DNA from: Prevotella sp.
GTDB lineage: Bacteria > Bacteroidota > Bacteroidia > Bacteroidales > Bacteroidaceae
Direction: 5' to 3'
DNA: 49,803 bases
Assembly: GCA_017478085.1 (NCBI GenBank)
Contig: JAFVEE010000152.1
Span: forward strand, 1-49,803
Part shown: positions 7,429 through 49,803 of the stretch, piece after piece
Layout of the letters: each line of letters starts with the position of its first letter
Numbering within the stretch: position 1 is the stretch's first letter
Program-made: the position numbers and the translations under genes
Notes under the pieces: generated by a model
Database searches by the model: none
What the model saw: the letters and a program-made list of their open reading frames with translations, nothing else
Told to the model about the DNA's origin: nothing

Positions 7429-9003
7429 ATGGAACAACAATTTGATTCGAGCAATGCTCACGCCGAGCATGAACTCATCGCCAAAACGTTCATGGGACTG
7501 GAACCTGTGCTGGCGAAAGAACTGACCCGACTGGGGGCCAACAACGTACAAATAGGTAGACGCATGGTGTCGTTTACGGGCGACAAGGAGCTGATGTACC
7601 GCGCCAATTTCTCGCTGCACACAGCCATCAAGATTCTGAAGCCCATCAAGCGCTTCAAGGCCAAGAGTGCCGACGACGTCTACGAGGAAATCAAGAAGAT
7701 AGACTGGAGCGAATATCTGGACAACGACCGTACCTTTGCGGTCGATGCCGTGGTGTTCTCGGAAGAGTTCCGCCACTCCAAGTTCGTGAGTTATAAGGTG
7801 AAGGACGCCATCGTAGATCAGTTCCGCGAGCAGCACGGCACGCGCCCCAACATATCGGTGGCCAACCCCGACCTGCGCCTGCACATACACATAGCCGACG
7901 TGGCCCCGGGCAAGAGCGAGTGCACGCTCTGCTTAGACAGCAGCGGCGAGTCGCTGCACCGCCGTGGCTACCGCCAGGAAAGCGTCGAGGCCCCCATCAA
8001 CGAGGTGCTGGCCGCCGGCATGATCCTGATGACGGGCTGGCAGGGCGATACCGACTTCATCGACCCTATGTGCGGCAGCGGCACGCTGCTCGTCGAGGCA
8101 GCCCTCATAGCCCGCAACATGGCGCCGGGCCTGTTCCGCAAGGAGTATGCCTTCGAGAAGTGGCCCGACTTCGATGCCGAGCTGTTCGACCGCATCTACA
8201 ACGACGACTCGCAGGAGCGCGAGTTCAACCACCACATCTATGGCTACGACGTCGACATGAAGGCCGTAAACACGGCACGCATGAACATCAAGGCCGCCGG
8301 ACTCTCGGCCGACATCACCGTTGAGCAGCAGGACTTCAAGGACTTCCAGCAGCCCAGGGAGAAGAGCATTATTGTGACCAACCCGCCCTACGGCGAGCGC
8401 ATATCGACACCCGACCTGCTGGGCACCTACCGTATGATAGGCGAGCGGCTGAAGCACCAGTTCCAGGGCGGCGACGCCTGGATTCTGAGCTATCGCGAGG
8501 AGTGCTTCGAGCAAATCGGACTGAAGCCCTCCATCAAGATTCCCCTGTACAACGGCTCGCTGGAGTGCGAGTTCCGCAAGTACCAGATGTTCGACGGCAA
8601 GCTGAAGCAGTTCCGCCAGGAGGGCGGCGTGGTGAAGACCGACGAGGAGAAGCGCCAGATGGCCGAGAAGCACCGCTTCAAGAAGGAGCGCGAGTTCAAG
8701 CAGCGCATCAGCGAGCAGGAGGAGAACGAAGACAGCGACATTCGCTCGTTCACCTTCCACCACCACGAGCTGAAGAAGGAGCGCAGAGCGGAAAGAGGCG
8801 AACGCGGTGAGCGCAGGGAGGACAGAGGCCGCCGCTTCGAGAAGCGCGACGACGACCGCCCACGCCGCTTCGAGAAGCGCGGTGGCGACGACGACCGACG
8901 CAACCGTGGCGGCCACGAGCGCTTCAACCGCCAGGGAGGCGGCAGCAAGAAGCCATTCAACAAAGGAAAGAAATTCAACCATCACGACGATGATGAAGAT
9001 TAA
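7429..9003 (+). CDS. rlmL: THUMP-domain 23S rRNA guanine-N2 methyltransferase (RlmL-like)
   Basis: A 524-residue cytosolic SAM-dependent enzyme that should methylate guanine N2 in 23S rRNA (m2G2445 in E. coli RlmL). The N-terminal THUMP RNA-binding domain occupies about 12-165. The Rossmann methyltransferase domain has motif I DPMCGSG (212-218) and catalytic motif IV NPPY (318-321). The last ~110 residues are a charged, probably disordered tail with two RRFEKR repeats and RGG-like clusters, likely an extra RNA-binding extension. It corresponds to the N-terminal half of E. coli RlmKL; the RlmK half is absent. It overlaps the following peptidase gene by 14 nt. Confidence 0.88.
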   Translation: MEQQFDSSNAHAEHELIAKTFMGLEPVLAKELTRLGANNVQIGRRMVSFTGDKELMYRANFSLHTAIKILKPIKRFKAKSADDVYEEIKKIDWSEYLDNDRTFAVDAVVFSEEFRHSKFVSYKVKDAIVDQFREQHGTRPNISVANPDLRLHIHIADVAPGKSECTLCLDSSGESLHRRGYRQESVEAPINEVLAAGMILMTGWQGDTDFIDPMCGSGTLLVEAALIARNMAPGLFRKEYAFEKWPDFDAELFDRIYNDDSQEREFNHHIYGYDVDMKAVNTARMNIKAAGLSADITVEQQDFKDFQQPREKSIIVTNPPYGERISTPDLLGTYRMIGERLKHQFQGGDAWILSYREECFEQIGLKPSIKIPLYNGSLECEFRKYQMFDGKLKQFRQEGGVVKTDEEKRQMAEKHRFKKEREFKQRISEQEENEDSDIRSFTFHHHELKKERRAERGERGERREDRGRRFEKRDDDRPRRFEKRGGDDDRRNRGGHERFNRQGGGSKKPFNKGKKFNHHDDDED

Positions 9004-11206
9004 CACCCACAGCCTGCTGACGCTCCGTGCCGCCGCAGGACTGCTACTATCGCTATTCGTGTCTATCACAATGACAGCACAAGACCAGCTTTTCACCCTT
9101 GAAGACCTGAACTTCGGCGGCAGGAACTTCCACAACCTGCGGGCCAGGAACCTCTTCCTGACGTGGTGGGGCGACCAGCTGATGTACCAGGATGCCGAGG
9201 AGAGCGGAACCATCGATGCCAAGGGCAACCGGCAGGCTGTGGTCACGCTGAAGGACCTGGGCGAAGGATGGCACTCGCTGATGGGGGCCAGCTACCCCTA
9301 CCCCAACGAGCCGCTGGCCCTGGTCAGAAACTCGAAGCAGCGCGTGCTCTACGACTTCAAGAAGAAGCAGGTGGCATGGCGGCAGACCTGCGAGGGCGAG
9401 CAGAACAGCCACTGGAACAAGGCGTCGAGGGCCGTGGCCTATACCCGTGGGAATCAGCTCTTTGTGCGCACTGCCGACAACACCGAGCGGCAGCTCACCA
9501 CCGACGGCTCGCGCGAGATAGTCTATGGCGAGGCCGTTCACCGCAACGAGTGGGGCATCGACGAGGGCCTGTTCTGGAGCCCCGACGGCCAGCGGCTGGC
9601 CTTCTACCGCATGGACCAGTCGATGGTGACCGACTACCCGCAGGTGAACATCGATCCCCGCATTGCCGAGATGGAGCCCGACAAATACCCCATGGCCGGT
9701 ATGACTTCGCACAAGGTGACCGTGGGTGTCTATGACATTGCAACGGAAAAGACTATCTACCTGCAGGCTGGCGACCCCACCGACCGCTACTTCACCAACA
9801 TAGCCTTCTCGCCCGATTCGAAGACCATCTATATGTTCGAACTGAACCGCGACCAGAACGACTGCCGCTTAGTGAGCTACGATGCCACGACGGGCCAGCG
9901 ACTGGCCGAGCTCTATCGCGAAACGAGCGACAAGTATGTGGAGCCCCTGCACCCCATCCAGTTCCTGCCCTGGGACCACTTGCAGTTCATCATGCAGAGC
10001 CAGAAGGACGGCTACAACCACCTATACCTCTTTAATATAAAAGGCGAGGAGCTGAAGCAGCTGACCAAGGGTCCCTGGGTGGTGACCGACGTGCTGGGCT
10101 TCAACCAGAAGCAGCAGGCGGTCGTCATCACCTCGAAAGAGAAGCACGCCCTACAGCGCAATATCTATGCCGTAGACGTGAAGACGGGCAAGCGCACACC
10201 GCTGGACAACGGCGAGGGCGTGCACCGCGCCGTCCTCTCGGCCTCGGGCACCAAGCTCTACGACAAGTGGCAGACGCCCACCGTACCCAACAACGTAGAC
10301 CTCATCTCGATCACCCCGAAGCTGGCTCCCGTCACCGCCCGCCTGCTGACGGCCCCCGATCCCTGGCAGAGCTTCCAGCAGCCCGGCTACCTAAGCGGCA
10401 CCATCAAGGCCGCTGACGGCAAGACCGACTTATACTGGCGCATGGTTGTGCCAAAGGCTCTTTACGACAAGTTGTCCATTGATGAAAACGGTAACCGAAC
10501 GCCCCTCCCTTGGGGAGGGGAAGGGGGTGGGCTCTACCCGACGGTGGTCTACGTCTACGGTGGCCCCCACGCCCACAATGTGGAGGCATCGTGGCACTGG
10601 CAGAGCCGTTCGTGGGAGACGTATATGGCCCAGAAGGGCTACATCGTGTTCATTCTCGACAACCGGGGCTCTGAGAACCGGGGCCGCGACTTCGAGCAGG
10701 CCACCTTCCGACAGCTGGGCCAGATCGAGATGCAAGACCAGATGAAGGGCGTGGACTTCCTGCGCACGCTGCCCTACGTCGACATGAACCGGCTGGGCGT
10801 TCACGGCTGGTCGTTCGGCGGCTATATGACCATCTCGCTCATGACGAACTACCCCGACGTGTTCAAGGTGGGCGTGGCCGGTGGCCCAGTCATCGACTGG
10901 AAGTGGTACGAAGTGATGTACGGCGAGCGCTATATGGACACGCCCGAGCAGAACCCCGAGGGCTATGCCAAGACCAGCCTCGTCAGCAAGGCGGGCCAGC
11001 TGAAGGGCAAGCTGCAAATCATCATCGGCTACAACGACCCCACCGTCGTGCCGCAGCACGCCCTGTCGTTCCTGAAGGCCTGTGCCGAGGCCGGCACGCA
11101 GCCCGACTTCTTTGCCTATCCCGGCGAGGGCCACAACATGATGGGACATAACAGCGTGCATCTGCACGAACGCATCACCCAGTATTTTGAAGACTATTTG
11201 AAATAA
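8990..11206 (+). CDS. S9B prolyl dipeptidyl peptidase (DPP-IV-like), secreted
   Basis: A 738-residue exported serine peptidase that removes X-Pro dipeptides in its family. The ATG at 8990 (or 8993) is chosen because it is followed at once by a signal peptide ending near MTAQDQ; upstream codons in this frame only mirror the methyltransferase tail. A beta-propeller (about 60-430) precedes an alpha/beta-hydrolase domain with nucleophile in GWSFGG (S608), D683 in GYNDP and H715 in GEGHN. Oddity: about a dozen residues ([13 protein letters not shown]) just before VVYVYGG are encoded by a copy of the palindromic repeat found elsewhere in the window (10500-10532). The gene overlaps rlmL by 14 nt and precedes glyA by 19 bp. 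Confidence 0.9.
10500..10532 (-). repeat. Palindromic repeat copy B, in frame in the peptidase gene
   Basis: Read on the minus strand it starts GCCCACCCCC, then two variable bases, then the palindrome CCCCTCCCCAAGGGAGGGG. It matches the copy at 38052 in 29 of the first 31 bases; both differences are at positions 11-12. It is a single copy with no inverted partner nearby. Confidence 0.85.
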
Positions 11207-20934: not shown

Positions 20935-22344
20935 TTATTTCTTGATAGGATATTTCTTGATGAGCAGCACCATCAGCAGGGCGATGACTGCGGGGAAGAG
21001 GGAGAAGAGCGACCAGATCATCGTGAGCACCGAGTCGGTGATGGAGGCCGGGTCTACGATCGAGTTACCCATCTCGTCGGTGGTCATACTGGCACCGGCA
21101 ATGCCCAGGAACAGGGCCACGAGCGAACCGCTGATGGCCGTGCCGAACTTCTGGGCCATAGTGCCCGACGAGAAGATGAGGCCCGTCGACGAGGTGCCGT
21201 TCTTTTCGGTGGCCCAGTCGGCCACGTCGGCATACATAGACCACAGCAGGGGCGAGTAGAGGCCCACGCCCACCGAGGTGAGCACCACCAGGGCCACCAT
21301 CACCCAGATGTAAGCCGGGTCCATAGGCACGAAGAAGAAGGCCACCGAGAACACGGCACAAATCAGGGCTGCCACCACGAAGGCCTTGCGCTTAGAGCCT
21401 ATCCAGGCCGTGAATTTTGGCGACACGCCGCCGAAGATCATACAGGTGAGCTCGCCGAAAGTCATGAACACGGTGTAGTTGATGATGAGCCCGCTCACGG
21501 TGATTTCGCCACCCAGGCAGTAGGTCAGCATATAGCCAGCCACGGCATAGCGGAAGCCGTTGAAGAAGTTGGTGCAGATGCCTATGAGCGTCAGGTAGAT
21601 CCAGGGCTTGTTACGGAACAAGTCGGCAAACTGCTTCATCGAGAACTTCTCGGCACGGACGGGCTTCAGCCGCTCCTTGGTCAGGAAGCCACAGGCCAGT
21701 GTGCCCAAGGTGGCCAGCAGACCGAAGCCTGCTCCCAGCACGGCATACTGGTGTGCCTCGGTGCCGCCCACCATCTTCTGCAGGTAGGGGAACGACAGCA
21801 GGGTGATGAAGCCCATGGCGTAGGCACCCACCATACGGAAGCTGCTGAACTGGTTCTTCTCGTTGTCATCGTCGGTCATCACGCCCAGCAGCGAGCCGTA
21901 GGGCACGTTCACCGCCGTGTAGGTGGCCATCATAAGCAGGTAGAGGGTGTAGGCATAGATGCGCTTGCCGGTCATGCCCAGGTCGGGGGTGTAGAGCAGC
22001 AGGGCGAAGATGAGGCCCAGGGGCACGGCTCCGAAGATGAGCCAGGGGCGGTAGGTGCCCCAGCGCGACTGGGTGCGGTCGGCCAGGCTGCCCATAAGCG
22101 GGTCGGTCACCACGTCGAACATTCGGGCGATGAGCATCAGTGTGGCCGTGTCGGCAAACGACAGTCCGAACACGTTGGTGAAAAACAAGGGGAAGGCAAT
22201 CGACATAATCTTCCACGTAATGCCACCAGCGGCTGCGTCACCAAGGGCGTAGCCTATTTTTTCGGAAAGGCCCACCCCCGACCCCTCCCCAAGGGAGGGG
22301 GGAGTAGTTACCTTATTCTTCATATTAGTATTTGAATTATTCAT
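20935..22344 (-). CDS. GPH-family sugar:cation symporter (MFS, MelB-like)
   Basis: A 469-residue inner-membrane protein with 12 hydrophobic segments and the MelB-type motif RMFDVVTDPLMGSLADRT near residue 75. It probably imports manno- or gluco-disaccharides for the cytosolic epimerase and phosphorylases. The start at 22344 overlaps the DUF559 stop by 8 nt; M8 at 22323 is an alternative. Residues about 12-25 (VTTPPSLGEGSGVG) are encoded by palindromic repeat copy C and separate a short MKNK from LSEKIGYALGD, where such transporters normally begin. The start codon therefore lies within the DUF559 element. Confidence 0.93.
   Translation of the reverse strand: MNNSNTNMKNKVTTPPSLGEGSGVGLSEKIGYALGDAAAGGITWKIMSIAFPLFFTNVFGLSFADTATLMLIARMFDVVTDPLMGSLADRTQSRWGTYRPWLIFGAVPLGLIFALLLYTPDLGMTGKRIYAYTLYLLMMATYTAVNVPYGSLLGVMTDDDNEKNQFSSFRMVGAYAMGFITLLSFPYLQKMVGGTEAHQYAVLGAGFGLLATLGTLACGFLTKERLKPVRAEKFSMKQFADLFRNKPWIYLTLIGICTNFFNGFRYAVAGYMLTYCLGGEITVSGLIINYTVFMTFGELTCMIFGGVSPKFTAWIGSKRKAFVVAALICAVFSVAFFFVPMDPAYIWVMVALVVLTSVGVGLYSPLLWSMYADVADWATEKNGTSSTGLIFSSGTMAQKFGTAISGSLVALFLGIAGASMTTDEMGNSIVDPASITDSVLTMIWSLFSLFPAVIALLMVLLIKKYPIKK
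22270..22305 (+). repeat. Palindromic repeat copy C (left end of DUF559 element)
   Basis: Plus strand GCCCACCCCC-GA-CCCCTCCCCAAGGGAGGGG, then GGAGT. It matches copy D (22729-22763, opposite strand) in 29 of the first 31 bases. The GCCCACC end faces outward. It is translated in frame as part of the symporter's N-terminus. Confidence 0.9.
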
Positions 22345-22711
22345 TATTTAATTTGTTCATAATTGTTTCTAAGACGTTATCTATATCACCAATTACTTCA
22401 TCATTGGTGAATCGTAATACGCTGAATCCCTGCTTTTCTAATTCCTCTGTTCTTTCCGCATCCCTTTGAGGTTGCTCCCCAACAAGATGGTAACCACCAT
22501 CAATTTCAATGATAAGTTGTTTGGAAAGGCAGACGAAATCAGGAATATAATCCAATACGACATGTTGCTGTCTGAAATGCCATCCTGTTCTTCCTCCCCT
22601 TAAATACTGCCACAATATGCGTTCAGCATCGGTAGGATTATTTCTGTTCTTGACGGCAAACTCGTGCAACAAGTTGAAGTTTGAAACTGCTGTTTGATAT
22701 TTATACCTCAT
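22337..22711 (-). CDS. DUF559 endonuclease-like protein
   Basis: A 124-residue protein from the ATG at 22711. An earlier in-frame ATG (22774) would only add repeat-encoded residues, whereas the usual family start (LLHEFAVKNRNNPTDAERILW) fits 22711. It shows the PD-(D/E)xK-like layout of DUF559/Vsr-related nucleases: E30 in PTDAE, D58 in IPDF, E69-x-D71 in EIDG, H75, and the late FSVLRFTNDEV strand. Codon use is AT-rich, unlike every neighbour, a sign of recent transfer. It is flanked by inverted palindromic repeats, suggesting it acts on them or travels with them. No role in mannan use is expected. Confidence 0.85.
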   Translation of the reverse strand: MRYKYQTAVSNFNLLHEFAVKNRNNPTDAERILWQYLRGGRTGWHFRQQHVVLDYIPDFVCLSKQLIIEIDGGYHLVGEQPQRDAERTEELEKQGFSVLRFTNDEVIGDIDNVLETIMNKLNNE

Positions 22712-22721
22712 TATTGATTGT

Positions 22722-23945
22722 CTATACAGACTCCCCTCCCTTGGGGAGGGGTTGGAGGTGGGCATTTTTTTCAATCAGTTTCTTGATGGTTTCTACCGAG
22801 GCAGACGTGGTCAAGCCGTCTTCGGGGGTATGCAGGCAGTAGTCAATGAGCTTTTCGACGGTCGAGGTGGCAACGTGCATACGCGTATCGGCGGTGGCGT
22901 AGTAGATGAACACCTTACCATCCTCATCGGCTATCCATCCGTTGGCGAAGGCCACGTTCATCACGTCGCCCAAGTACTCGCTGCCCTCGGGCACCAGGAA
23001 GTAGCCGCCAGGCTTGGCGATGACACGGGTGGGGTCTTCGAGCGAAGTCATGTACATGTAGAGCACGTAGCGCAGGCCGTCGGCCGTGGCGCGCACGCCA
23101 TGGGCCAGATGCAGCCATCCCTTCGGAGTCTTGATGGGGTGCGGCCCCTCGCCGTTCTTCACCTCGGTGATGGTGTGGTAGTGGCGGGGATAGATGATTT
23201 TCTCCTCCTTGATCTCGGCGTGGGTGATGTCGTCGACCAAGGCCCAGCCGATGCCCCCACCGCTGCCCGTGTCGATGAAGCCATCCTGCGGACGGGTGTA
23301 GAAGGCATAGCGGCCATCGACGAACTCTGGATGCAGCACCACGTTGCGCTGCTGGCTGCGCGTCTTCAGGTCGGGCAGGCGCTCCCAGTTCACGAGGTCC
23401 TTCGTGCGGGCAATGGCCGCCGTGGCCGTGGCCGCCGAGAGGTTGCCGGGCTGCGAGTCGTCGTGACGCTCAGCGCAGAACACGCCATATATCCAGCCAT
23501 CCTCATGCTGCGTGATGCGCATGTCGTAGATGTTGGTGGCAGGAACCACATCGTCGGGCATGGTGATGGGCTCGGGCCAGAAGCGGAAGTTATCGATGCC
23601 GTTGGGGCTCTCGGCCACGGCAAAGAAGCTCTTGCGGTCGGCACCCTCCACGCGCACCACCAGCACATAGCGGCCCTTCCACTTCAGGGCCCCCGAGTTG
23701 AGCGTGGCGTTGCACATGATGCGCTGCATCAGGTAGGGGTTGTCGTGCTCATTGAAATCATATTTCCACTCCAAGGGCACGTGCTCGGCAGTGATGATGG
23801 GGTACTTGTACTTCTCGTAGATGCCGTTCTCTGCATAGCAGAGCGGCGAAGCCGAGCGGCCCCATTCCAGGGGCTCGTTCTTGCGGCTCAGCAGCTCCTC
23901 GTGGTGGGCGCGCAGGGCTGCTACTCTTTCTTTGAAATCGCTCAT
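22722..23945 (-). CDS. GH130 4-O-beta-D-mannosyl-D-glucose phosphorylase
   Basis: A 407-residue cytosolic enzyme that converts mannosyl-glucose + phosphate to mannose-1-phosphate + glucose. It closely follows the GH130 subfamily 1 pattern: PLEWGRSASPLCYAENGIYEKY start, ATNIYDMR with catalytic D141, PRHYHTITEVKNGEGPHP and the five-bladed propeller repeats. No signal peptide. The natural end is near KKLIEKN; the last dozen residues (HLQPLPKGGESV) are encoded by palindromic repeat copy D and the stop codon (22722-22724) lies just inside the element. The gene starts 4 bp after the GH26 stop. Confidence 0.93.
   Translation of the reverse strand: MSDFKERVAALRAHHEELLSRKNEPLEWGRSASPLCYAENGIYEKYKYPIITAEHVPLEWKYDFNEHDNPYLMQRIMCNATLNSGALKWKGRYVLVVRVEGADRKSFFAVAESPNGIDNFRFWPEPITMPDDVVPATNIYDMRITQHEDGWIYGVFCAERHDDSQPGNLSAATATAAIARTKDLVNWERLPDLKTRSQQRNVVLHPEFVDGRYAFYTRPQDGFIDTGSGGGIGWALVDDITHAEIKEEKIIYPRHYHTITEVKNGEGPHPIKTPKGWLHLAHGVRATADGLRYVLYMYMTSLEDPTRVIAKPGGYFLVPEGSEYLGDVMNVAFANGWIADEDGKVFIYYATADTRMHVATSTVEKLIDYCLHTPEDGLTTSASVETIKKLIEKNAHLQPLPKGGESV
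22729..22763 (-). repeat. Palindromic repeat copy D (right end of DUF559 element)
   Basis: Read on the minus strand it matches the copy at 38052-38086 in 34 of 35 bases. GCCCACC faces outward, into the GH130 gene, and gives that protein its C-terminal tail. Confidence 0.9.
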
Positions 23946-23949
23946 ATCT

Positions 23950-25059
23950 CTATTTTATTTCGTTCAGGAACAAAGTCTTGGGGTCATTGTAGAACTCGAG
24001 GAAGTAGGGAGCATCGGGCTGCGAGGGCGACGGGCCGAACCACTCCTTCTTGTAGTTGCGCCACACCAGCAGATAGCTGATGGGGTACTTGCCGGCCACG
24101 GGCTGCAACGACGATACCCACCACGTGGGGTCGGTCAGGTTCTTCAGCCCGCACTCCGTCAGGGCGGCTATCTTGCCGTGGGCCTCGGCAAAGGAGCACA
24201 GCATCTGCAGGTTCTGGTCCAGCTGCGACATAAAGTCCTCCTTCGACCCCCACTGGTAGCCGTCGATGCCCACCAGCTGCACGCGGTCGTCGCCCGGGTA
24301 GCGCTTCAGGAATTTCTCCTCGGTCAGGTCGGCAGCCATGCCGGGCGAGTAGGCCCAGAGCAGGTTGCTGAAGCCGTCGGCCGTGAGCTTGTCTTGCAGC
24401 ATGTTCCACAGAGCCTTGTACTCCTCAGCGGTGCAGAGCTTCTCGCCCCACCAGAACCAGGAGCCCGTATTCTCGTGCCACGGACGGAAGATGATGGGCA
24501 CGGGCTGTCCGTCGCTGGTCTTCAGCGTGGCCAGGAAGTCGCTCATGCGCTGCATCCACAGCTGGAACCGCTCGTGCTGCTGGCCTCCGGGCAGCACGCT
24601 CTTCACCACGGTGCTGTCGCTCACGTCCCAGGCCGTACCTGCGGGCCATGTGCCGCCCTCTTCGGTGGTGGTCACTGGGTTGCGCGGATGCCAGCTCAGC
24701 GTCACGATGCCGCCGCGCTCATAGTGGCTGACGACCTCCTGCGTGATGCGGCTGAAGGGCACGCTGTCAAGGCTCAGCGAGTCGCCCATCTCTATGCCGC
24801 CCAGTTCAAATCCCATCACGGCGGGATAGTCGCCGCAGGTGTTCTTCACGTCGCTGCTGTCGTTCTGGTAGGCCCAGGTCAGTCCGTACATCGGGTCGTC
24901 CTGGTGTCCGAACATATAGCCCTTCTGCCTCAGGCTGTCCAGTCGCTCAGCCAGCTGCTCAGCCGGAGTCTTCTCTGCTTCGGCGGCCTTCTTCCCGCCG
25001 CCACAGGCCGTCAGCACGATTCCTGCCACGGCCATGCCCATTAATGCTTTCTTCATCAT
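23950..25059 (-). CDS. GH26 beta-mannanase, lipoprotein
   Basis: A 369-residue lipoprotein (lipobox LTAC, C19) that should hydrolyse beta-1,4-mannan, probably releasing mannobiose as the B. fragilis homologue does. The barrel has FRPWHE with acid/base E196 and ALTECG with nucleophile E302, plus WFWWG after the first. The catalytic domain starts soon after the lipobox, with no extra module. It is the second gene of the leftward operon, 26 bp after the CE7 stop, and that gap is filled by heptad repeats. Confidence 0.93.
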   Translation of the reverse strand: MMKKALMGMAVAGIVLTACGGGKKAAEAEKTPAEQLAERLDSLRQKGYMFGHQDDPMYGLTWAYQNDSSDVKNTCGDYPAVMGFELGGIEMGDSLSLDSVPFSRITQEVVSHYERGGIVTLSWHPRNPVTTTEEGGTWPAGTAWDVSDSTVVKSVLPGGQQHERFQLWMQRMSDFLATLKTSDGQPVPIIFRPWHENTGSWFWWGEKLCTAEEYKALWNMLQDKLTADGFSNLLWAYSPGMAADLTEEKFLKRYPGDDRVQLVGIDGYQWGSKEDFMSQLDQNLQMLCSFAEAHGKIAALTECGLKNLTDPTWWVSSLQPVAGKYPISYLLVWRNYKKEWFGPSPSQPDAPYFLEFYNDPKTLFLNEIK

Positions 25060-25108
25060 ATCTCTTAATTCTTAACTCTAAACTCTTAATTCTTAACACC
25101 TAACTCCC
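25060..25108. repeat. Seven heptanucleotide repeats before the GH26 start
   Basis: Plus-strand units with period 7 (AATTCTT, AACTCTA, AACTCTT and similar) run from the base next to the GH26 start codon back through the CE7 stop codon and last codons. On the mRNA this is an A/G-rich leader of TTAAGAA-like words. Confidence 0.7.
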
Positions 25109-26608: not shown

Positions 26609-26670
26609 AGAGAGAAAAAATGGCACTATTTTAACGAATGTGGCAAGAAATGATAAAAAAAAGTTATTCA

Positions 26671-26695
26671 GTTTCAAAAAAAAGTAGTAGTTTTG
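26671..26695 (+). promoter_or_regulatory. Promoter of the first SusC operon
   Basis: GTTTC (26671-26675) and TAGTTTTG (26688-26695) followed by GCAC; 17 nt from the first base of GTTTC to TA. The start codon is 84 bp downstream. Confidence 0.65.
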
Positions 26696-26779
26696 CACTC
26701 AAATTACCAACATACTGACTGAAAACTTACACAGAACATCATTCATTTATAAACAATACTAACCAATTTAACAAACCGT

Positions 26780-37595: not shown

Positions 37596-38642
37596 ATGAA
37601 ACCATACAAGTTCAAACCTTTTCTGAAGACAACCCTTTGGGGGGGCTACCAGATAGCCCCCTTCAAAGGCATCTCAACGGCCCAGCCCAACATTGGCGAA
37701 AGCTGGGAGATAAGCGGAGTGCCCGGCCATGAGAGCCTGGCCATAGACCGCGGACTGATAGACGATGTAGACGTGGGCCTGACGCTCACGGAGCTCATCG
37801 ACAAGTACAAGGGACTGCTCGTAGGGCAGAAGGTGTACAAGCGCTTTGGCAACCAGTTCCCGCTGCTGGTGAAGTTCATCGACTCGCGCCAGGACCTCAG
37901 CGTGCAGGTGCATCCTAACGACGAACTGGCCATGCAGCGCCACGGCTGTGCCGGCAAGACAGAGATGTGGTACATCATCAAGAGTGATGTGGGCTCGAAG
38001 ATCTATGCAGGTCTGAAGAAGAGCATCACACCCGATGAGTATGAAAAGATAGCCCACCCCCAACCCCTCCCCAAGGGAGGGGAGTCAGAAGGTCGGACTC
38101 AATCGAAAGAACTATCATTAACGCCCCCCCTTCCTTGGGGAGGGGCCGGGGGTGGGCTTCAGGATGTCATTGCCACCCACGAGGCCCATGAGGGCGACCT
38201 CTACTTCCTGCCCGCAGGCCGTCTGCACGCCATCGGCGCAGGCAACTTCCTGGCCGAAATCCAGGAGACCAGCGACATCACCTATCGTGTGTACGACTTT
38301 GGCCGCAAGGATGCCCACGGCAATCCGCGCGAACTGCACATAGAGCAGGCTAAGGATGCCATCGATTATCAGGTGTGGCCCGAGTACCGAACGTCGTACG
38401 ACTCGACGAAGCCGGTCTCGCAGCTCATCAACTGCCCGCACTTTGTGGTGCACCGGGTGGTGGTGCAGGTGGCCCAGCAGGTCGATTTCCACTGCGACTC
38501 GTTCGTGGTGGTGATGTGCCTATGGGGCGAGGCCAACATCAACGGCATACACATTCGGCAGGGCGAGACCATCCTGGTGCCTGCCTGCGAGAATATTCTC
38601 TACATCTTTGGCAACGCCACCTTCATGACTGCAACGATTTAG
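37596..38642 (+). CDS. manA: Mannose-6-phosphate isomerase, class I
   Basis: A 348-residue cytosolic Zn enzyme converting mannose-6-phosphate to fructose-6-phosphate, the step that takes mannose into glycolysis. Candidate metal ligands are Q104 and H106 (QVHPND), E123 (TEMW) and H211 (PAGRLHAIGAG). Residues A153 to L188, between EYEKI and QDVIATHE, come from an in-frame palindromic repeat insertion (38052-38157) and have no counterpart in the family; they should form a loop before the metal-binding strand carrying H211. The frame is intact, so the enzyme is probably made. Confidence 0.93.
   Translation: MKPYKFKPFLKTTLWGGYQIAPFKGISTAQPNIGESWEISGVPGHESLAIDRGLIDDVDVGLTLTELIDKYKGLLVGQKVYKRFGNQFPLLVKFIDSRQDLSVQVHPNDELAMQRHGCAGKTEMWYIIKSDVGSKIYAGLKKSITPDEYEKIAHPQPLPKGGESEGRTQSKELSLTPPLPWGGAGGGLQDVIATHEAHEGDLYFLPAGRLHAIGAGNFLAEIQETSDITYRVYDFGRKDAHGNPRELHIEQAKDAIDYQVWPEYRTSYDSTKPVSQLINCPHFVVHRVVVQVAQQVDFHCDSFVVVMCLWGEANINGIHIRQGETILVPACENILYIFGNATFMTATI
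38052..38157. mobile_element. 106-bp in-frame element: two inverted palindromic repeats inside manA
   Basis: The left copy (38052-38086, plus) and right copy (38122-38157, minus) face outward like the ends of the DUF559 element and enclose only 35 bp. They match each other in 28 of the first 31 bases. The left copy matches copy D of the DUF559 element in 34 of 35. With two flanking bases the net insertion is 36 codons, so manA stays open. It looks like a cargo-less relative of the 22270-22763 element. Confidence 0.75.
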
Positions 38643-38765: not shown

Positions 38766-38793
38766 ATTAAAAAAAGGCAATTAATGTTATGTC

Positions 38794-38818
38794 GTTTCAA
38801 AAAAAAATTGTAGCTTTG
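38794..38818 (+). promoter_or_regulatory. Promoter of the second SusC operon
   Basis: GTTTC (38794-38798), an A-run, then TAGCTTTG (38811-38818) followed by CAC; 17 nt from the first base of GTTTC to TA, as in the other two mannan-locus promoters. Confidence 0.65.
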
Positions 38819-38895
38819 CACACAGATTGCCTAACCAGCGACTAAAAGCAGCGAAAACCACTAACAAAACAATACTAACCAATTAACAAAAACGT

Positions 38896-48812: not shown

Positions 48813-48820
48813 GGCTGAGT

Positions 48821-48862
48821 CAAGAATCAAGAGTTAAGAATTAATAGTTAAGAATTAAGAAC
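48821..48862. repeat. Six heptad repeats before the third IPT/TIG gene
   Basis: CAAGAAT, CAAGAGT, TAAGAAT, TAATAGT, TAAGAAT, TAAGAAC: exact period 7, ending one base before the ATG at 48864. Confidence 0.75.
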
Positions 48863-48863
48863 T

Positions 48864-49803
48864 ATGAAGCAAAAAATCAATTATCTGGGCGTGCTGCTGG
48901 CCATGTTCTTCATGGGCATCTTCTGCACAGCCTGCCATATTGAAGACACCGACGCGGCTGGCGGCGGTCTGGCCATCAAGGCATTCTTCCCCACAAAGGT
49001 AGTAGCCCATCAGCCCATGACCATCAACGGCTCTGGCTTCAGCGATGTCTATCAGATAGAATTTCCCGGTGGAGCCATCGTCACCGACTTCGAGACCGTG
49101 AACGACAATATGATCAGGCTGAACGCCCCCACTGGCATCGCTACCGAGGGTGGCAAGATTGCCGTGCGCACCCTCGACAAGGTGGCCGAGTCGCGCCAGC
49201 CGCTCACCCTTGGCCACACCCAGGTGTCGGGCTTCTCGCTGCAGCCCGGCGAGAGCGTCACCGGTGGCGACCTCATCACCGTGTTCGGCTCCGACCTCGA
49301 GTTCATCAACGCCGTCGAGCTGCTCGATGCCGACGGCCAGCCCCAGCTGGTCGACCACAAGGACTTCTATCGCAAGGGCACCAGCAGCCTCATCTTCCGC
49401 GTGCCCGTGAAGAACATCTTCGAAGGCACCTGGGTGGGCTATCTGCGCACCTACGACGGCCAGAAGATCGCCCTGCCTGAGCTGGCCTACCAGCCCGCTG
49501 CCGACGAGGGCCACTACGAGACCGTGAAGACCACCATCTGGAAGAACGACGGCTCGCTGGGCGAGATCAGCTGGAGCGGCGACTACCGCTTCGCCCCCGA
49601 GAGCAACTCTACCGGCGAGGAGTGCTACACCGTGCCGCAGGATGTGTGGGAGAAGATGAAGGCCGAGACCTTCTACGTCACCGTGAAGGGCGAGAACCCG
49701 CAGATACGCGTCACCTCTGGCTGGTGGAGCACCACCTGGACGGGCAACGACATTCAGCCCGGCAACGAGCTGCTGGCCGACAACGGCGACGGCACCTGGA
49801 CGC
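48864..49803 (+). CDS. IPT/TIG surface glycan-binding lipoprotein (3), partial
   Basis: The first 313 residues of a lipoprotein (lipobox CTAC, C24); the gene runs off the window. Two IPT/TIG domains (about 36-118 and 120-212) precede a module starting near KTTIWKNDGSLGEISWSG that resembles the C-terminal modules of SGBP2 (polar/aromatic, IWAGEF-like opening, WWSTTW later). It follows SusD 3 in the typical SGBP position. Confidence 0.85.
   Translation, partial: MKQKINYLGVLLAMFFMGIFCTACHIEDTDAAGGGLAIKAFFPTKVVAHQPMTINGSGFSDVYQIEFPGGAIVTDFETVNDNMIRLNAPTGIATEGGKIAVRTLDKVAESRQPLTLGHTQVSGFSLQPGESVTGGDLITVFGSDLEFINAVELLDADGQPQLVDHKDFYRKGTSSLIFRVPVKNIFEGTWVGYLRTYDGQKIALPELAYQPAADEGHYETVKTTIWKNDGSLGEISWSGDYRFAPESNSTGEECYTVPQDVWEKMKAETFYVTVKGENPQIRVTSGWWSTTWTGNDIQPGNELLADNGDGTWT

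Follow-up and report, generated by a model that had tools for sequence, protein, structure and literature searches.

The DNA analyzed here, a stretch of 49,803 nt from Prevotella sp. (contig JAFVEE010000152.1 of assembly GCA_017478085.1; henceforth the window), carries a 494-bp entity composed of a single gene, for a small protein of the DUF559 family, and two inverted copies of a palindromic unit, one at each end. Comparison with other loci and genomes gives good support to the conclusion that gene and palindromes are mobile as one unit. We consider it probable that the entity is a mobile element whose sole gene encodes a nuclease acting on its own palindrome, and that gene-less palindrome doublets are its non-autonomous derivatives; we infer that the DUF559 protein drives movement by nicking or cutting, together with host repair.

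Each end of the element spans ∼31–42 bp and places an asymmetric, C-rich GCCCACC tag beside a hairpin-forming palindrome; the extended arms of the window element are 35 nt long and 91% complementary. A preliminary description of the window had the gene bracketed by inverted palindromic units and standing out as AT-rich from a GC-rich setting. Both observations hold (Table 1), the second with a GC content of 36% for the element interior versus 61% for the GH130 gene and 60% for the MFS transporter gene. It had also called the repeats outward-facing, which is correct for the tag; the gene-less copies, however, are mostly inward doublets, ordered like the gene-bearing unit. Its gene-less recurrences resolve into one single unit and one doublet. 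Pfam matches to the window gene are to DUF559 and MTES_1575 only, and no Y1/HUH transposase is encoded in the unit.

The first line of evidence for mobility is the sharing of boundaries. DNA similarity to the window element of at least 200 bp was found at 22 of 80 named loci: in 19 it goes no more than 12 bp beyond the element ends, in three it overshoots by 21–25 bp, and it reaches at least one end in 15 and both ends in six. The upstream neighbors of these related elements, named by Pfam on loci L050, L051, L059, L052, L054, L049 and L057, are SRP54 GTPase, arginine decarboxylase, topoisomerase I, TatC and transketolase; at L053, L055 and L058 the upstream gene is that of L050 (BLAST). Together with the flanking repeats, the palindrome counts and the filled and empty sites described below, shared ends beside differing genes lend strong support, as genomics, to the earlier proposal of a minimal mobile element and of a repeat family tied to a nuclease.

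The second line is the existence of filled and empty sites, a comparison that had been suggested as a check and that was borne out at the GH130–MFS junction, in manA, in the S9 peptidase gene and in the gene for leucyl-tRNA synthetase (LeuRS). In nine relatives in which both genes were recognized, the GH130–MFS junction has a gap of 8–153 bp and DUF559 is absent. None of the six close orthologues compared has the manA doublet, and none of the 28 relatives compared has the S9 unit (comparisons that left out L160 for manA and L212 for S9). In LeuRS two positions are used. At the first, genomes G078, G061, G152 and G202 have DUF559, G043 has a gene-less insert and G000 is empty; at the second, DUF559 is present in G043 and a gene-less insert in G000, and the remaining four genomes are empty. 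At one GH130–MFS gap (L139, genome G030) a short C/G-rich palindrome lies where the window has the element.

Derivatives form the third line. Contig C162 carries a full element between two genes, which we take to be korA and korB, and 750 bp further on a 229-bp copy with like ends from which most of the gene is gone (MAFFT aligned the right ends only; the likeness of the left ends was read from the letters). At this second place a unit is present in G059, and a pattern search returned none in G034. One leuS gene of G043 contains two copies of a 159-bp doublet, 96% identical to each other; one copy stands by itself, and the other makes up the left part of a DUF559 element. The gene and its two cognate ends behave as one unit whose boundaries are the same from locus to locus; doublets without the gene are common, a number of them being deleted copies, and a site filled in some species is empty in others.

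The palindrome is abundant in the source genome. Allowing two mismatches at most, the pattern CCCCTCCCNNNGGGAGGGG is present 96 times in the assembly (3.13 Mb, 76.6% complete), versus none for the reversed control pattern. Directed units, defined by at most six mismatches to tag plus palindrome, were sought in selected stretches of this genome and numbered 69, of which 62 make up 31 inward pairs. Among neighboring units within 700 bp of each other in these stretches, 31 of 33 pairs are inward, that is, REPIN-like, and two are in another order. Twenty-nine of the inward pairs are gene-less, with spacers of 18–167 bp; the remaining two enclose DUF559 (432 and 467 bp). As single-stranded DNA the manA doublet is predicted to fold into one long hairpin (z −5.7). 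A four-run G-quadruplex motif is present on the G-rich strand of 57 of the 69 units (33 of 1380 shuffles), but was rejected as a common feature: just 30 of 98 arms of other elements, arms that the detection method had shortened, carry it, so the G-quadruplex is not general.

We next consider how closely such repeats are associated with DUF559 genes. Repeats were scored as the best ungapped inverted repeat in the 250 bp either side of a gene, a score of at least 16 being termed strong. All three DUF559 matches in the source genome are bracketed by inverted palindromes, each with its own variant. Among close relatives of the window protein, 57 of 80 have strong flanking repeats, versus 2 of 240 control intervals; in a set of 100 genomes, 50 of 84 DUF559 genes have them, versus none of 340 intervals and none of 84 control genes (GH130, manA and S9 loci); flanking by inverted palindromes, which the preliminary description had proposed to count, is therefore far above control. 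The 84 derive from 85 of 109 DUF559 matches, 23 partial or weak ones and G072:C6 (in-frame stop) being left out and L257 (also with an in-frame stop) retained; one of the 85 lies too close to a contig end for scoring. Across the phylum, strong repeats flank 9 of 30 loci versus 0 of 120 controls (18 of 30 versus 1 of 120 at a score of 12), and on plasmids of other phyla 9 of 15 loci versus 0 of 90 controls (2/4 cyanobacterial, 3/3 Deinococcus and 4/8 alphaproteobacterial; the 15 were sampled from 38 plasmid records with a DUF559 match). DUF559 itself is present in 51 of 100 relatives and in 138 of 247 genomes of the phylum. On the Deinococcus plasmids L323 and L326, from two species, DUF559 lies among the 4-hydroxyphenylacetate genes hpaB, a VOC protein gene and hpaE; these are shared, while the wider surroundings are somewhat different.

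The repeats also follow the nuclease. Among 49 elements (one of 50, with arms of at least 80 nt, was omitted), repeat similarity is 0.757 when the proteins are close but their loci and genomes differ (33 pairs); for unlike proteins it is 0.356 if both come from one genome (16 pairs) and 0.366 if they come from two (686 pairs). With 35 locus representatives, a Mantel test gave rho 0.35, a value reached in 2 of 2000 permutations. Since unlike DUF559 genes of one genome do not share palindromes, the palindromes are not a property of the host genome: they track nuclease lineage, and different DUF559 lineages have different palindromes. Palindrome abundance, too, goes with DUF559. Among 60 genomes (the source genome and 59 congeners, DUF559 fragments being counted as matches), at least eight palindromes occur in 14 of 37 DUF559-bearing genomes versus 0 of 23 DUF559-free genomes (p 3.5e-4), the largest count among the latter being five. 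The repeat is thus not abundant without DUF559, contrary to what the preliminary description had named as a refutation: all 14 genomes with at least eight copies carry the gene.

These same data bear on the possibility that the palindromes are REPs mobilized by a RAYT (Y1/HUH) or other transposase, with DUF559 as trapped cargo. The arrangement does resemble REPs and REPINs, the source genome has one Y1_Tnp match, and an excerpt of PMC6006769 describes Bacteroidetes TnpA-REP genes (subclass 2.6) with atypical flanking structures and copies elsewhere in the genome. However, the abundance test that separated genomes by DUF559 gave 10 of 35 versus 4 of 25 for Y1_Tnp (p 0.21), genome G019 has 85 palindromes with one DUF559 match and no Y1_Tnp match, palindrome type goes with DUF559 lineage across genomes, and the resident Y1_Tnp gene has its own, different inverted palindromes. 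Because of the lack of association and the other palindromes of the resident gene, RAYT/Y1 was set aside as the driver, and we judge the cargo explanation unlikely. The resident locus itself (L048 1422–2058; C148:11954–12298 plus flanks) has inverted palindromes of 20 bp (100%) and 24 bp (96%) and tandem repeats of 30 and 74 nt: it is an ordinary RAYT-like locus with a different repeat family.

What kind of protein is DUF559? A profile of 44 relatives matches the endonuclease-like protein 3hrl (E 1e-29) and, at the sequence level, the 'mobile intron protein' 3r3p (E 5e-8), which we take to be I-Bth0305I. Invariant residues include E28, Q47, H48, D56, E67, D69 and H73, presumably a Vsr-like active site. 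Ratios of nonsynonymous to synonymous substitution (dN/dS) of 0.05–0.22 in eight pairs with unsaturated dS indicate purifying selection. The gene could instead be a Vsr-like repair enzyme or other fixed gene, its palindromes being ordinary terminators or hot spots. The protein has weak similarity to the vsr family model (19.9 bits, below the cut-off of 97.85), and an excerpt of PMC12907096 links Caulobacter VsrA, which contains DUF559, to cytosine methylation. Such a housekeeping role is nevertheless very improbable: the repeats are lacking at control genes and intervals, units lie in frame within coding sequence, homology ends at the limits of the element, and an Rfam scan of the window at gathering score found no family match.

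The occurrence of units in frame extends to whole elements. According to Pfam, DUF559 shares a single open frame with host domains, which lie on either side of it, in MetH (two instances), LeuRS (four, with a fifth, G061, seen in the alignment), HsdR (two), a UvrD helicase, a DegT aminotransferase, an ABC protein and a type ISP enzyme. A GTGKT motif (seen in the sequence) precedes DUF559 in two AAA helicases; in an epimerase and a GATase the domain is terminal or nearly so, and in other frames it stands ahead of guanylate kinase, an amino-acid kinase and RNase H. The palindromes encode predicted linkers, for example SPSPxGEG. In all five genomes concerned the only strong match to the LeuRS editing domain is the frame with DUF559, a weak further match being present in four. 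Similarly, 12 of the 31 doublets of the source genome lie in a frame that is open throughout and for 60 codons on both sides; hosts of doublets are mnmG, leuS, miaB and mfd (above NCBIfam cut-off) and N-acetylornithine carbamoyltransferase and manA (below it). Between genes, as in the window and on C162, the element can provide a stop and a new start, and TAG occurs within 16 nt at 34 of 62 inner ends. A Pfam scan of 20 frames, with E values up to 1e-5, lists no splicing domains, and the insert seems to stay in the host protein. Elements are thus often predicted to be read in frame with host proteins, a picture wider than that first proposed.

Use of the same positions in LeuRS, MetH and a helicase by different species is what would be expected if DUF559 were a homing nuclease, cutting conserved genes at a specific site in their empty alleles, with palindromes acting as linkers or repair arms and dispersal being rare. 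The relation to 3r3p points the same way, as do 11 of 36 genes at shared loci that are closer to a gene at another locus, although the neighbor grouping is rough and identity differences at shared loci are small. Yet the 31 scanned doublets, 29 of them gene-less, lie at many unrelated sites in one genome and so are not the product of site-specific homing. We think homing quite unlikely as the whole explanation; it may be part of the life of the DUF559 element.

Returning to a mobile element with its own nuclease, the process can be envisaged as follows. The small PD-(D/E)XK, Vsr-like DUF559 nuclease would recognize its own palindrome, as hairpin or duplex, and would nick or cut both this and a target; host repair would then copy the element, or a doublet, to a new and often nearby site. 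The G/C-rich ends are open to translation in several frames and often add a stop and a new start codon, so that insertions within genes and operons could be tolerated. Such break-and-repair fits better than a classical transposase because there is no target duplication, no known transposase, and host codons are missing at the manA and S9 inserts.

Several observations weigh against this reading. The target-site comparison across the 31 doublets revealed no duplication (mean match 1.19 versus 1.11 for shuffled partners, with 141 of 500 shuffles as high), and codons of the host genes are missing next to the inserts in manA and S9. For the most part, the spacers of gene-less doublets differ from one another, likeness being limited to nearby pairs on C78 and C152 and to the C162 and G043 copies. 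Strong flanking repeats are lacking at 34 of the 84 DUF559 genes (11 score 12–15, the rest lower) and at 21 of the 30 phylum-set genes. Four of the 23 DUF559-free genomes have 1–5 palindrome copies, and in G016 and G023 the listed palindrome variants differ from the exact ends of the resident DUF559 elements. In a second class of elements (L003 on C29 of the source genome, L029, L252, L276, L278 and L026) the order is opposite to that in the window element, with the palindrome on the outside and the G-rich tag on the inside. Lastly, 25 of the 36 genes at shared loci are closest to their same-locus partner, and 11 are not, so that much inheritance is vertical; the 85 genes fall into ∼60 neighbor groups, a rough count given that L001 falls outside the korAB group despite a 2 kb DNA match to L020 and L024. 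Movement appears to be real but not fast, with much vertical inheritance and with copies often close together.

Among the closest known systems, RAYT (TnpA-REP)/REPIN shares with the element one small nuclease gene, cognate flanking palindromes, many gene-less inverted doublets and several families per genome. The differences are that the enzyme here is DUF559, of PD-(D/E)XK rather than Y1/HUH type, and that elements and doublets occupy in-frame positions within housekeeping genes; for REPs, an excerpt of PMC6006769 describes in-frame insertions in tnpA-REP genes of subclass 2.4. The GT[AG]G foot that the same excerpt gives as the consensus for REP palindromes is not seen, as GTAG or GTGG, in the source-genome units inspected, which start with GCCCACC. 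The window element works like RAYT/REPIN yet lacks the enzyme that defines that family. Insertion sequences and their miniature derivatives share terminal inverted repeats, internal deletions and empty sites, but here no transposase of known type lies inside the ends, there is no target duplication and each end has a hairpin. With the Vsr-like homing endonucleases (3r3p) there is a related nuclease sequence and a use of conserved host genes at positions shared across species; unlike these, DUF559 has no intron or intein found around it, and has cognate palindromic ends and dispersed gene-less copies. Rickettsia palindromic elements are likewise translated in frame inside genes, but the DUF559 family includes a nuclease-bearing form with matching ends. 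Inteins also carry a nuclease domain in frame inside conserved enzymes; the 20 DUF559 frames differ in having no splicing domain listed.

Opinion is evenly balanced on a broader proposition: that DUF559 elements form a widespread and so far undescribed class of mobile DNA in which a Vsr-like PD-(D/E)XK nuclease, the sole enzyme, copies itself and its gene-less doublets, in many cases to nearby sites, via cutting of hairpin ends and host repair, and which is translated without splicing as a domain or linker in housekeeping enzymes. The open-access literature, a scope outside which lie preprints and most subscription papers, yielded no earlier description of DUF559 with palindromic repeats among the titles and abstract openings seen, and novelty is claimed only against those papers. 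Although common, DUF559 is still listed by Pfam as a protein of unknown function. If true, the proposition would tie a non-HUH nuclease to REP-like palindromes and so explain repeat families without RAYTs; it would provide a candidate engine for palindromes inside coding genes, and would show that mobile DNA can persist as a domain within housekeeping enzymes, an example being LeuRS, whose only strong match in each of five genomes holds DUF559.

Table 1. Coordinates of the DUF559 element, its neighbors and its gene-less relatives in the window.
Feature	Position	Strand	Details
Whole element, 494 bp	22270..22763	−	DNA similarity at 22 named loci with DUF559 runs at most 25 bp past these ends
DUF559 nuclease gene, 124 aa from likeliest ATG (picked by eye)	22337..22711	−	PF04480, 111 bits (cut-off 20.6 bits); frame open back to 22774
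End unit: tag GCCCACCCCC + palindrome CCCCTCCCCAAGGGAGGGG	22270..22300	+	
Inverted end unit	22733..22763	−	29/31 bases identical after inversion
Upstream GH130 gene	22722..23945	−	PF04041; element supplies last 13 codons and stop (from sequence)
Downstream MFS sugar transporter gene	20935..22344	−	PF13347; start and first 25 codons within element (from sequence)
Gene-less inward doublet (38052–38082 and 38127–38157), in frame in mannose-6-phosphate-isomerase-like gene (37596–38642)	38052..38157	+	Pfam PMI_typeI_cat
Single unit, in frame in S9 peptidase gene (8807–11206)	10499..10532	−	Pfam Peptidase_S9

Two further repeats were observed in the window. A 65-nt direct repeat (26660–26724 and 38783–38847, 74% identical) lies upstream of two long open frames, which to us look like SusC, and may represent a promoter or leader common to both. 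An AT-rich inverted repeat of 59 nt is found at 25048–25106 and 48817–48875, its two copies being 76% complementary and 23.7 kb apart.

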